From Sediminibacter sp. Hel_I_10 (GTDB taxonomy: Bacteria; Bacteroidota; Bacteroidia; Flavobacteriales; Flavobacteriaceae): DNA of 64,000 nt. The notes under the pieces are model-generated. The model was not told where the DNA came from. It did not search any database and worked only from the letters and a program-made list of their open reading frames with translations. Where the stretch lies: assembly GCF_000688335.1 (NCBI RefSeq), contig NZ_JHZX01000001.1, positions 3,348,001-3,412,000 on the forward strand, written 5' to 3'. The position numbers and the translations under genes were made by a program. Shown here piece by piece: positions 60,306 to 64,000 of this stretch; positions within the stretch are counted from its first letter, which is position 1, and every line of letters starts with the position of its first letter.

Positions 60306-60379
60306 GGCCTCGTGGCGCAACTGAATAGCGCACTTGATTACGGCTCAAGAGGTTACTGGTTTGAATCCAGTCGAGGTCA
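60306..60379 (+). tRNA. tRNA-Arg (anticodon ACG)
   Basis: 74 bases. Acceptor arm GGCCTCG pairs with CGAGGTC; the anticodon arm is CTTGA-TTACGGC-TCAAG with ACG at 34-36, the anticodon normally edited to ICG by TadA to read CGN codons; the T arm is CTGG-TTTGAAT-CCAG. CCA is not encoded. A terminator follows directly. Confidence 0.95.
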
Positions 60380-60386
60380 CTAGCTT

Positions 60387-60701: not shown

Positions 60702-61328
60702 ATGATTGAAGACCTTAAGAAGAATTACGGATCTCTATTTGAGCCAGCGCTCATTGACGAAATCAATAAAGTAGGGCTGCTTTTAGAAGTACCCGAAGGT
60801 GAAGATTTGATAAGACCAGGGCAGTATATCAAATCGATGCCTTTATTGCTTTCGGGAAGTATAAAGATCATGCGTCCTGATTCTGAAGGAGACGAACTCC
60901 TATTGTATCATATTGAAAAGGGAGACACCTGTGCCATGACCATGACCTGCTGTCTTGGGCATACAAAAAGTGAAATTCACGCTGTTGCCGAAACATCGGC
61001 AAAACTCTTAATGATTCCCATTGCTAAAATGGAAGAATGGTCTAGCACGTATAAATCTTGGCGTAATTTTGTGTTCAATAGTTACCATGCCAGAATGATG
61101 GAAATGCTAGAAAGTATTGATAACATCGCATTCAATAATATGGATGAGCGTTTGGAAAATTATCTGGACCAGAAAATAAAAATCTTAAACAGTAAACACA
61201 TTTATACCACTCATAAAGATATTGCGAGTGACCTTCATACAAGTCGAGTGGTTATCTCTAGACTTCTCAAAAAGATGGAAAAGGATCATAAAATAAAACT
61301 TCACCGCAGTTTTGTTGAAGTCTTGTAA
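60702..61328 (+). CDS. Crp/Fnr family transcriptional regulator of the sulfur module
   Basis: 208 residues. Residues ~1-120 are a cyclic-nucleotide-binding-like beta roll; ~120-150 the dimer helix; the C-terminal Crp-type helix-turn-helix is TTHKDIASDLHTSRVVISRL. The beta roll carries C77-x5-C83-C84 (GDTCAMTMTCCLG), but none of the N-terminal cysteines that bind Fe-S in FNR. The TauE/SafE gene starts 58 bases downstream and the CstB-like gene follows. A dyad fitting a Crp/Fnr dimer overlaps its own stop codon. Regulation of the module by thiol or persulfide sensing is inference. Confidence 0.88.
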   Translation: MIEDLKKNYGSLFEPALIDEINKVGLLLEVPEGEDLIRPGQYIKSMPLLLSGSIKIMRPDSEGDELLLYHIEKGDTCAMTMTCCLGHTKSEIHAVAETSAKLLMIPIAKMEEWSSTYKSWRNFVFNSYHARMMEMLESIDNIAFNNMDERLENYLDQKIKILNSKHIYTTHKDIASDLHTSRVVISRLLKKMEKDHKIKLHRSFVEVL

Positions 61329-61338
61329 CATTGGTTAC
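61325..61338. promoter_or_regulatory. Candidate Crp/Fnr operator before the TauE/SafE gene
   Basis: A 5-4-5 dyad GTAAC-ATTG-GTTAC that overlaps the regulator stop codon. Its right edge is 22 bases before the TACATTTG box at 61361, placing its centre about 41 bases before the expected start of transcription, the usual site for class II activation by Crp/Fnr proteins. Confidence 0.6.
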
Positions 61339-61360
61339 TTAGAGTTCTTTTTCGGTTCTA

Positions 61361-61368
61361 TACATTTG
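61361..61368 (+). promoter_or_regulatory. -7 box of the TauE/SafE promoter
   Basis: TACATTTG, an exact TAnnTTTG match, 18 bases before the ATG. There is no TTG at the -33 position, which fits a promoter needing an activator. Confidence 0.65.
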
Positions 61369-61386
61369 TAGCATATTTAAACCATA

Positions 61387-62187
61387 ATGAGTATCATAGA
61401 GATTTTAGGATATATAGGAGCGCTTCTAGTAGGGGTCGTGTTGGGGCTTATTGGAGGAGGAGGTTCCATATTGACGGTTCCTGTATTGGTGTATTTCTTT
61501 TACCTTAATCCTGTTACAGCTACAGCATATTCGCTTTTTGTAGTGGGAAGTTCTGCATTGGTAGGCGCTTTACGCAATATGCAAAAAAATCTGGTTGTTT
61601 TTAAAACCGCTTTTGTATTTGCGGGCCCTGCACTTGTCATGGTATTTGTCACTAGAAAATTTATAATACCGGCAATTCCTGAACAGCTGTTTTCAATTGG
61701 CGGTTTACTAATTACAAAGAGCTTGGCCATTATGGTGTTTTTTGCCATCATTATGCTTTTGGCATCTGTAACCATGATTCGAAACAGAAAGCCAGAGAAA
61801 GAACAGGTCGCTCTAAATCCGGCGAATCATGCCTTATTGGTTATTCAAGGTATCGTAATTGGTTTTATTACGGGTATGGTAGGTGCAGGTGGCGGCTTCT
61901 TAATTATTCCGGCTTTAGTCATCTTGGCAAAACTACCGATGAAAAAAGCAGTGGCAACATCACTTTTTATAATCGCAATCAATTCCTTAATTGGCTTTAC
62001 AGGTGATATTTCAAACATAACAATAGATTGGTCATTCCTGTTTTTATTTACAGTGCTGTCTATAATAGGGATTTTTATAGGCATTTGGCTCAATAAATTT
62101 TTTGATGGCAAACGGCTTAAAAAAGCATTTGGATGGTTTGTACTGGTGATGGGGATCTATATCATTTACAAGGAACTTTTCAGCTAA
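61387..62187 (+). CDS. TauE/SafE family sulfur-compound transporter
   Basis: A 266-residue membrane protein with about eight helices in two repeats. Glycine-rich starts of each half are LVGVVLGLIGGGGSILTVPV and IVIGFITGMVGAGGGFLIIP, the family hallmark. Members export sulfite, sulfoacetate or related organosulfur anions, or import thiosulfate. Here it lies between a Crp/Fnr regulator and a CstB-like enzyme, as TauE does in the staphylococcal cst locus, so export of sulfite or thiosulfate made from sulfide is the likely role. Confidence 0.9.
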   Translation: MSIIEILGYIGALLVGVVLGLIGGGGSILTVPVLVYFFYLNPVTATAYSLFVVGSSALVGALRNMQKNLVVFKTAFVFAGPALVMVFVTRKFIIPAIPEQLFSIGGLLITKSLAIMVFFAIIMLLASVTMIRNRKPEKEQVALNPANHALLVIQGIVIGFITGMVGAGGGFLIIPALVILAKLPMKKAVATSLFIIAINSLIGFTGDISNITIDWSFLFLFTVLSIIGIFIGIWLNKFFDGKRLKKAFGWFVLVMGIYIIYKELFS

Positions 62188-62237
62188 GATCTTTTGTTGC
62201 ATCTCAATGCATCTATCGGTTACTTTTTTTAGGTTGG

Positions 62238-62251
62238 GTATCAAAGGTTAC
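62238..62251. promoter_or_regulatory. Candidate Crp/Fnr operator before the CstB-like gene
   Basis: GTATC-AAAG-GTTAC, a 5-4-5 dyad with one mismatch to the site at 61325. The distance from its right edge to the next -7-like box (TAATTTTA, 62274-62281) is again 22 bases. A lone GGTTAC also occurs at 62218. Confidence 0.5.
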
Positions 62252-62273
62252 ACTATAGCACTTCATTCTTTAT

Positions 62274-62281
62274 TAATTTTA
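62274..62281 (+). promoter_or_regulatory. -7-like box of the CstB-like gene
   Basis: TAATTTTA, seven of eight positions of TAnnTTTG, 16 bases before the ATG. Weak on its own; supported by the same operator spacing as at 61361. Confidence 0.45.
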
Positions 62282-62297
62282 TAAAAAATTAAATATT

Positions 62298-63626
62298 ATG
62301 ACTATTAAACAATTTGAATATAAGCCACTTGCACATTTTTCTTACGCTATTGTGAGCGATGGTGAAATGGCGGTTATTGACCCAGAACGAAATCCAGAGC
62401 AATACTATGCTTTTGCGAAAGCGAACAATGCAAAAATTGTAGCGGTAATAGAAACACACCCTCATGCCGATTTTGTGAGCTCTCATTTAGAGATTTATAA
62501 CCATACAAATGCTACCATATATAATAGCGAAAAATTGGGTGCCGATTATCCACACCATTCATTTGACTCAGGTGATCAAATTCAATTAGGAGCCATCACA
62601 TTAAAAGCTTTAAATACACCTGGCCACTCGCCAGATAGTATTACGATAATTGCAACAGACGGAAAAGACACGGCGTTATTTACGGGAGATACGTTGTTTA
62701 TTGGAGATGTAGGTCGACCCGATTTGCGTGAAAAAGCAGGCAACATGAGAGCTAAACGCGAAGAATTGGCCGAAATGATGTACGAGTCGATTACAACTAA
62801 ATTCACTGATTTGCCAGATGATGCGCTTGTCTATCCAGCACATGGCGCAGGTTCTCTTTGTGGTAAGAATTTGAGCGATGCCGCGAGCAGCACACTCGGA
62901 AATGAGCGTAATGATAATTGGGCTTTCAAAAAACAATCTAAAGAAGCTTTTATGGAAACCATACTTGACGGGCAGCCATTTATACCTCATTATTTTGGGT
63001 TTGATGTAGACACCAACAAGACTGGAGCTGCTCATTTAAAGTCGTCAATTGATCTTATTCCATTTACTGAAAATACAACTGCCGAAGGATTAATTATAGA
63101 TATGCGTGATGAAGTTACTTTTAAAAAGGGGCATCTCAAAGGGAGTATTAATATTCAAGCGGTGTCTGAAACATCAAAATTTGAAACTTGGTTAGGGTCT
63201 ATCGTAAAACCTGAAGATCAATTCACCTTGGTCATAGATCATAAAGAAAATAAAGAGGCCTTACTGCACCGTATAGCCAAAATCGGTTATGAAAAGCAAC
63301 TCAAGCAAGTCATAACGCTTTTAGACCAAGAGATGAAACGTACAGCAAAACTCGACCTGGAGGATTTTAAAAATAACCCAGACAACTATACTATTGTTGA
63401 CATTCGCAATCAAAGTGAAATCAATAATGGGAAGTTTTTTGAAAATGCGCTTGAGCATCCATTGAATGAGTTACGCGAAACGGCAAATCAAATTCCAACG
63501 AACAAGCCTATCGTTGTGCATTGTGCAGGTGGATATCGCAGTGCTGCCGGAAGCAGTATTGTACAGAACGTTTTGAAGGATGCACTAGTCTATGATTTAA
63601 GTGAAGCTGTGAGTCAGTTTCAATAA
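62298..63626 (+). CDS. CstB-like persulfide dioxygenase fused to two rhodanese domains
   Basis: 442 residues. The metallo-beta-lactamase fold (~1-240) carries THPHADFVSSH, LNTPGHSPDSI, FTGDTLFIGDVGRPDL and VYPAHGAGSLCG, the ETHE1/CstB pattern for one iron; the usual HxHxDH reads HxHxDF here. A first rhodanese domain (~255-350) lacks a catalytic Cys; the second (~355-440) has the active loop HCAGGYRSAAG. This order (dioxygenase, pseudo-rhodanese, rhodanese) is that of CstB, which turns persulfides into thiosulfate. The gene follows the TauE/SafE gene by 110 bases. A role in sulfide detoxification is well founded on the family but untested here. Confidence 0.9.
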   Translation: MTIKQFEYKPLAHFSYAIVSDGEMAVIDPERNPEQYYAFAKANNAKIVAVIETHPHADFVSSHLEIYNHTNATIYNSEKLGADYPHHSFDSGDQIQLGAITLKALNTPGHSPDSITIIATDGKDTALFTGDTLFIGDVGRPDLREKAGNMRAKREELAEMMYESITTKFTDLPDDALVYPAHGAGSLCGKNLSDAASSTLGNERNDNWAFKKQSKEAFMETILDGQPFIPHYFGFDVDTNKTGAAHLKSSIDLIPFTENTTAEGLIIDMRDEVTFKKGHLKGSINIQAVSETSKFETWLGSIVKPEDQFTLVIDHKENKEALLHRIAKIGYEKQLKQVITLLDQEMKRTAKLDLEDFKNNPDNYTIVDIRNQSEINNGKFFENALEHPLNELRETANQIPTNKPIVVHCAGGYRSAAGSSIVQNVLKDALVYDLSEAVSQFQ

Positions 63627-63664
63627 AAATAACCTTCCCATAACCCTATGGAATAGCAGTTGAG

Positions 63665-63701
63665 ACCATTCATTTTACATCGGTAAAGTGGATGGTTTTT
63701 T
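63665..63701 (+). terminator. Terminator of the CstB-like gene
   Basis: A 13-bp stem, arms CCATTCATTTTAC and GTAAAGTGGATGG (one or two weak pairs), followed by T residues, 38 bases after the stop. Confidence 0.8.
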
Positions 63702-63780
63702 CATAAAAATAGTTTCAGATGAAAAAATAAAAAAGGGAGGTGTTTCAGAAGCAAAAAACCGACTATTTGCCAACGTTTAA

Positions 63781-63823
63781 TTAGCTTTCAATTTAGCTAA
63801 GAGTTGGGTTCTTCTTATCTTTG
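63781..63823 (+). promoter_or_regulatory. cydA upstream region with repeats
   Basis: TATCTTTG at 63816-63823 is an exact TAnnTTTG box 22 bases before the cydA ATG. Upstream is an inverted repeat TTAGCT-N8-AGCTAA (63781-63800). AGCTAAGAG occurs at 63795-63803 and again at 63837-63845, directly before the start codon. No GTAAC-N4-GTTAC site was found. Confidence 0.55.
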
Positions 63824-63845
63824 TATCAATCAAAACAGCTAAGAG

Positions 63846-64000
63846 ATGGATACCGAAATTCTTGCTCGAGTACAGTTCGCTTTTACAATCGCCTTTCACT
63901 ATATCTATCCACCTTTAAGCATTGGCTTAGGTTTAATAATGGTAATTTTTGAAAGTCTTTGGATTAAGACAAAAAATGAAAAATACCATATTCTTGCTAA
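63846..64000 (+). CDS. cydA: Cytochrome bd oxidase subunit I, start of gene
   Basis: 51 codons before the window ends. MDTEILARVQFAFTIAFHYI, then YPPLSIGLGLIMVIFESLWI, is the CydA N-terminus; the His of AFHYIYPP corresponds to the ligand of heme b595 (His19 in E. coli). Cytochrome bd resists sulfide inhibition in other bacteria, so its place after the sulfide module is meaningful. CydB should follow outside the window. Confidence 0.85.
   Translation, partial: MDTEILARVQFAFTIAFHYIYPPLSIGLGLIMVIFESLWIKTKNEKYHILA

Follow-up and report, generated by a model that had tools for sequence, protein, structure and literature searches.

A Crp/Fnr-family regulator and a shared operator in a candidate cst-like sulfur module of Sediminibacter sp. 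Hel_I_10

What controls a set of cst-like genes when a Crp/Fnr-family gene stands beside them? The question is raised by the end of a stretch of 64,000 nucleotides of Sediminibacter sp. Hel_I_10 (contig NZ_JHZX01000001.1, G000:C1:3348001-3412000), the whole of which we call the window. The genome is a single contig of 4.1 Mb and has the code G000; other G codes stand for genomes and L codes for fetched loci. In staphylococci the cst operon consists of CstR, TauE, CstA, CstB and SQR. A sequence-only reading of the window had proposed the order crp/fnr, tauE/safE, cstB-like gene and cydA, all on the plus strand, and the open reading frames (ORFs) and profile matches agree. It had also put the Crp/Fnr protein in the place of CstR; the crp/fnr gene does sit there, and an operator ties it to its neighbours. 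Among its ORFs the locus showed no CstR (CsoR-type) gene, a genome-wide CsoR search not having been made. We consider it probable (about 0.6) that a Crp/Fnr-family activator governs a cst-like reactive-sulfur module here. The features are given below, with L002 coordinates for those beyond the window.

60702..61328, plus strand: Crp/Fnr-family regulator, 208 amino acids (profile matches)
61325..61338, no strand: operator of tauE, GTAACATTGGTTAC, perfect palindrome overlapping the crp stop codon (motif scan)
61361..61368, plus strand: -7 box TACATTTG, 29.5 bp from the tauE operator centre (motif scan)
61387..62187, plus strand: TauE/SafE-family exporter, 266 amino acids (profile match)
62238..62251, no strand: operator of cstB, GTATCAAAGGTTAC, one mismatch (motif scan)
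62274..62281, plus strand: -7 box-like TAATTTTA, one mismatch, 29.5 bp from the cstB operator centre
62298..63626, plus strand: CstB-like persulfide dioxygenase-rhodanese, 442 amino acids (domains, solved-chain matches, conserved residues)
63662..63699, plus strand: 17-pair hairpin followed by or overlapping a U tract, likely terminator between cstB and cydA (folding energy)
63846..64000, plus strand: cydA, first 155 bases within the window, complete beyond it (profile match)
L002 9253-10290, beyond the window: cydB, after cydA
L002 10296-10309, beyond the window: operator of yeeE, GTAACATTTGTTAC, perfect (motif scan)
L002 10357-10914, beyond the window: yeeE half-transporter, 185 amino acids
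L002 10918-11331, beyond the window: DUF6691 protein, 137 amino acids

The operator and its position

Intergenic reading, confirmed by script, found the palindrome GTAAC-N4-GTTAC upstream of tauE and of cstB (with one mismatch), and the script added a copy upstream of yeeE-DUF6691. The letters of the cstB operator are identical ahead of the orthologue in G005 (L035), and in relatives the operator stands ahead of cstB, tauE, yeeE, sulP, SQR and rhodanese genes. Perfect operators numbered 117 among 2353 upstream regions of the fetched loci, against one region with the reversed control pattern, in a sample that is non-random because every locus was retrieved with a CstB or Crp gene as its centre, and in which a site between divergent genes may count for both. 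The short duplicate loci L133-L162 were excluded from these operator and upstream counts and from those of cydA sites and of the -33 element; the cysteine counts, the residue-183 counts and the tree used below kept L143 and L144 of them, and the tree excluded L186 and L187.

The operator centre lies 50-59 bp before the start codon for 48 of the 117 perfect sites. When the box TAnnTTTG is perfect, the distance from the operator centre down to its first base is 29.5 bp in 35/42 cases; with at most one mismatch allowed in the box, this distance holds for 87/117 sites. Promoters of Flavobacterium psychrophilum have this box at -12 to -5 (PMC9723704, from part of the paper), which together with the 29.5-bp spacing puts the operator centre at -41.5. 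By promoter consensus the operator thus spans -48 to -35, the position of a class II Crp-type activator.

An operator covering -48 to -35 would also suit a repressor, that is, a Crp that blocks RNA polymerase there until persulfide frees it, much as CstR or BigR would. Repressor sites, however, usually vary in position. The single constant position found here, -41.5, is shared with activated NtcA promoters (as given in a portion of PMC3898017), and we regard repression as unlikely. The absence of a -33 element was tried as a proof of activation (TTG is missing at -39 to -27 in 82 of the 85 operator promoters) and rejected, as ordinary promoters of the same loci likewise have no TTG peak.

Some perfect operators stand at genes whose link to sulfur is unclear and point to them as candidate new sulfur genes. 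They precede an FA_hydroxylase-type membrane protein (L061, L063, L068, L037), a 120-amino-acid protein ahead of a cluster of DoxX, 5'-nucleotidase-type and thioredoxin-like genes (L034, L035, L087), DUF983 proteins (L043, L111, L169) and a TPMT-like methyltransferase (L064).

A probable link between regulator and operator

Under the favoured activator reading, the regulator would bind GTAAC-N4-GTTAC centred at -41.5 and switch on three separate promoters, those of tauE, cstB and yeeE-DUF6691. The role that had been conjectured for it gains strong support from the sequence, in that the same operator, standing at one constant distance in the promoters, appears to tie it to these three units.

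The neighbourhood itself recurs. Our search covered 57 genomes of the order, counting the window's own; one or more CstB-like genes are present in 50, and 41 combine a CstB-like gene with a Crp match. In 23 of these 41 the two are no more than 10 kb apart, so the lack of conservation that would have refuted the sequence-only reading is not what we see. Of the Crp matches, the 35 with the best scores include 25 near a CstB-like gene, and the remaining 19 include 1. The layouts Crp-TauE-CstB and Crp-YeeE-DUF6691-TauE-CstB are found repeatedly, as are extended clusters that contain rhodaneses, SQR, peroxiredoxin and cydAB. A scan of named genomes for CstB relatives, of which the best 80 of at least 583 were taken, provides all the counts for named loci that follow. 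Among these 80 loci, several of which end at contig edges, Crp was present in 15, TauE in 21, DUF6691 in 20, YeeE in 15 and cydA in 7. That the neighbourhood is incidental and the regulator unrelated to the sulfur genes would suit the patchiness of the window's enzyme clade in its genus (3/22 genus-mates), but it is contradicted by the 23 genomes with Crp nearby and by operators that recur at the same genes, and we find it scarcely credible.

Presence of Crp and of the operator go together. Upstream regions of CstB2 have the operator (at most one mismatch) in 16 of the 29 loci having Crp and in none of the 17 without it. Among the 80 named loci, operator and box were found in 26, 12 of them with Crp, against 3 with Crp among the 54 operator-less ones. 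The 14 operator-bearing genomes without Crp in the locus all encode it elsewhere, compared with 8 of 14 operator-less genomes hand-picked from the 41 long loci having neither operator nor Crp (p 0.016), and in six of those 8 the operator stands beside their Crp.

Residue 183 in the recognition helix of the regulator is V, at the position of E181 in E. coli CRP (CRP numbering). It varies with the third base of the half-site: V goes with A in 162/184 half-sites and E with G in 14/22. In a second set, read by eye from whole-locus scans and not from upstream regions alone, V had 35 A and 3 G, and E had 2 A and 10 G. This pairing of V/E with GTAAC/GTGAC is consistent with a Crp that reads the operator.

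Within single genomes, perfect sites cluster at sulfur genes to different degrees: in G017, 8 of 10 lie no more than 17 kb from a single sulfur cluster, in G015 5 of 6 lie within 11 kb, and 5/12, 3/6 and 2/7 at sulfur loci in G013, G005 and G033, respectively. The own genome has 4 perfect operators, 2 in this locus and 2 inside unrelated ORFs, and the relaxed form GTRAC/GTYAC adds four more, all within ORFs. The predicted targets in this genome are thus tauE, yeeE-DUF6691 and, with one mismatch, cstB.

Some results weigh against the activator reading or limit its support. The V/E switch follows descent, with about three residue-183 changes on the tree and only one independent contrast, for which reason the covariation is not replicated evidence. 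Perfect sites genome-wide are often no commoner than the reversed control (own genome 4 vs 20; G015 6 vs 18); what is special about the operator is only the places where it stands, not its total number. Genomes without a Crp match at E 1e-5 (G001, G006, G014, G041, G054) still have 4, 6, 9, 3 and 1 sites. Among 30 short CstB loci a site was found in 8 and none in the loci of six Crp-less genomes, an absence that says little with so few sites overall; it is also lacking in 16 of the 24 from Crp-bearing genomes, because Crp-linked genes often lie elsewhere.

A variant, GTAAC-N4-GTAGC, lies 57-72 bp before cstB in L047, L070, L082 and L127, whose Crps have C77 and not C83 (residues discussed below); perhaps these loci hold a sister regulator with its own site.

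The enzyme, the transporters and the proposed signal

The product of the cstB-like gene matched Lactamase_B and two rhodanese stretches in the profile search. Its nearest solved chains are 3r2u (6.8e-62, residues 2-423 of 442) and 3tp9 (2.4e-61, residues 3-422). It has exactly two cysteines, C188 and C409, which are invariant in a 9-sequence alignment together with H54, H56, D58, H110, D131 and H182. As both cysteines fall outside the middle rhodanese stretch, this one has no cysteine and is the pseudo-rhodanese that had been predicted. Judged by its residues, the enzyme is of the CstB type, with metallo-beta-lactamase, pseudo-rhodanese and rhodanese domains, metal ligands and catalytic cysteines. 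CstB oxidises low-molecular-weight persulfide towards sulfite and thiosulfate, and the enzyme of the window would do the same.

Genes close to this 442-amino-acid enzyme (61-77% identical) were found in the 3 genus-mates mentioned and in a single genome from a different genus within the family. The own genome has a second CstB-like gene of 467 amino acids, 37% identical and standing alone about 15 kb downstream (L033 7203-8606, G000 about 3426202), with no operator better than three mismatches within 250 bp. When 81 long CstB-like proteins of the named-genome loci were clustered, 70 were closer to the kind of this paralogue than to the enzyme of the window.

An oxidised sulfur anion would leave the cell through TauE (profile E 3.1e-44; no PDB sequence match at E 0.001), and YeeE together with DUF6691 would carry sulfur across the membrane. 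These two short proteins cover opposite ends of the Pfam profile Sulf_transp (best stretches 251-309 and 11-103 of 310), as in the split YeeE/YedE (PmpAB-like) transporters described in the consulted part of PMC11582611. What the sequences show is the identity of the genes, the operator with its promoter geometry and the co-occurrence; the species transported by TauE and by the pair, binding by this Crp, activation and not repression, and the sulfur signal are our inference.

The regulator matches cNMP_binding over residues 29-112 (E 5.8e-9) and HTH_Crp_2 (E 7.4e-6, 26.3 bits vs a cut-off of 27), a cyclic-nucleotide-type domain and a Crp-type helix-turn-helix that place it in the Crp/Fnr family by sequence, the latter model scoring 0.7 bits below its cut-off. 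It stays far below the equivalog cut-offs of NtcA (38.1 vs 244.95 bits), CRP (37 vs 266 bits) and likewise Fnr. Its only cysteines, C77, C83 and C84, are clustered inside the cNMP_binding domain. The AlphaFold model (pLDDT 85, pTM 0.58) has residues 78-85 as a short helix of lower confidence and gives no S-S distances. The trigger would most likely be persulfide or polysulfide reacting with these three residues, and sensing of persulfide by the thiols is the inference that we favour. A dithiol persulfide sensor of the CstR, SqrR or BigR kind would have two conserved cysteines. C77 and C83 are found together in 45/52 sulfur-linked and 5/17 unlinked Crps, those with no seed-set sulfur gene within 8 kb (Fisher p 1.9e-5, confounded by descent). 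As a mark of sulfur linkage C83 was rejected: when only Crps with no more than 50% identity to that of the window are counted, p rises to 0.049, and the tree lends no independent support.

The same protein could activate through the same operator and sense something else, be it oxygen or redox state, sulfite or thiosulfate, or a small ligand, the sulfur response being then indirect. Crp-family proteins commonly bind small ligands, C77 is present in 15/17 unlinked Crps too, and C83 is absent from 7/52 of the sulfur-linked ones. These points speak for another signal; the two counts also weigh against persulfide, as does the tree, on which the cysteine pair follows descent with 4 changes. On the other side, C77 is present in 52/52 sulfur-linked Crps, the three clustered cysteines are the only ones of the regulator, and nearly all targets of the operator are sulfur genes. 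We give another signal a chance well below even. A further difficulty for a persulfide-sensing activator is that two SQR-type queries found no match in the own genome, a weak negative for which there was no positive control; SQR genes with operators do occur in relatives. The own module may handle persulfide from other routes or from uptake, and not sulfide directly.

Respiration, known systems and the wider group

In E. coli, bd oxidases are known to resist sulfide, and the sequence-only reading had placed cydA in one unit with the sulfur genes. This part is not supported in the own genome. The gene is a clear cydA (Cyt_bd_oxida_I, E 2.2e-164, complete outside the window and followed by cydB) and the sole match in its genome; it has no operator within 250 bp, and the hairpin between cstB and cydA (17 pairs with a U tract) is strong, at -20.3 kcal/mol and z -6.98. 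A consensus promoter and terminator scan gave nothing useful at the locus and missed this hairpin. A single unit of four genes from the regulator to cydA, with the bd oxidase induced together with the sulfur genes, would explain that cydA comes directly after cstB here, in G017 and in L118, and that perfect operators stand at cydA in the latter two. In the own genome the missing site and the hairpin speak against it, and we judge such a unit improbable; cydA is probably outside the regulon in this strain. Of the seven cydA genes in the named loci, three are 74-78% identical to that of the window and four 35-41%. Six cydA genes of the window's type comprise two with a perfect site (L036 in G017, and L118), one with the GTGAC variant (L111) and three with none (the window, L043, L088), from which a respiratory link appears to exist only in some lineages.

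Other features around the locus are a tRNA-Arg (anticodon acg) at 60306-60380, 322 bases ahead of crp, and, adjoining DUF6691, a signalling block (L002 11464-14956; L033 1902-5966) with a BLUF blue-light protein, an AraC-type regulator, a response regulator, a PAS histidine kinase and a 1354-amino-acid CheB-CheR-PAS-kinase fusion. With the tRNA as neighbour and the 442-amino-acid enzyme patchy in the genus, the locus could be an insertion beside the tRNA, an idea that gains no support from its G+C content (0.388 vs 0.393 for the window).

Like the cst operon, the locus has a TauE-type exporter adjoining a CstB-type enzyme. It differs from that operon in having a Crp/Fnr regulator with an operator at -41.5 in place of the CsoR-type repressor CstR, separate promoters, and no match to the SQR queries in its genome. 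The bigR operon (BigR, an ArsR-type repressor, with Blh and transporters; PMC5823870, in part) similarly sets a persulfide-oxidising enzyme and sulfur transporters under one dedicated regulator, although the regulator is an ArsR-type repressor there and the enzyme of the window reaches 42.5 bits against the Blh cut-off of 625. Cyanobacterial NtcA has a GTAN8TAC site at about -41.5 (PMC3898017, partial text), which resembles the operator in type and position, and a similar recognition helix that has V in the corresponding position; unlike NtcA, the regulator lies well under the NtcA cut-off, as given above, and no nitrogen genes were among the targets found. The closest solved relative of the regulator is 3dv8, a Crp/Fnr regulator of Eubacterium rectale (profile E 1.5e-31, and first in the fold search), which has cysteines aligned with C77 and C83 and is 22% identical in the fold search.

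Among the open-licence PMC papers that our searches listed, none is, judged by title and abstract, about a Crp/Fnr protein that regulates cst-like genes. A review names CstR, SqrR and BigR, and the portion of it consulted has no occurrence of Fnr or Bacteroid (PMC9774590). The nearest lead is the persulfidation of an Acinetobacter Crp (PMC7315123, from part of the article).

The known cst and bigR modules in the literature cited here are repressor-run, of CsoR or ArsR type. We tentatively propose, at somewhat less than an even chance, a Bacteroidota-wide class of reactive-sulfur sensors: Crp/Fnr activators with a cysteine cluster in a former cyclic-nucleotide domain that would act through GTAAC-N4-GTTAC at -41.5 to induce persulfide oxidation and sulfur transport, joined in some lineages by SQR and cytochrome bd. 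With the operator defined, the claim can be tested directly, and candidate regulon members can be read from the genomes of the group. If true, a cyclic-nucleotide fold would have been turned to thiol chemistry, and the Bacteroidota would have a traceable reactive-sulfur regulon, with a Crp/Fnr activator and a defined operator in many of its members.

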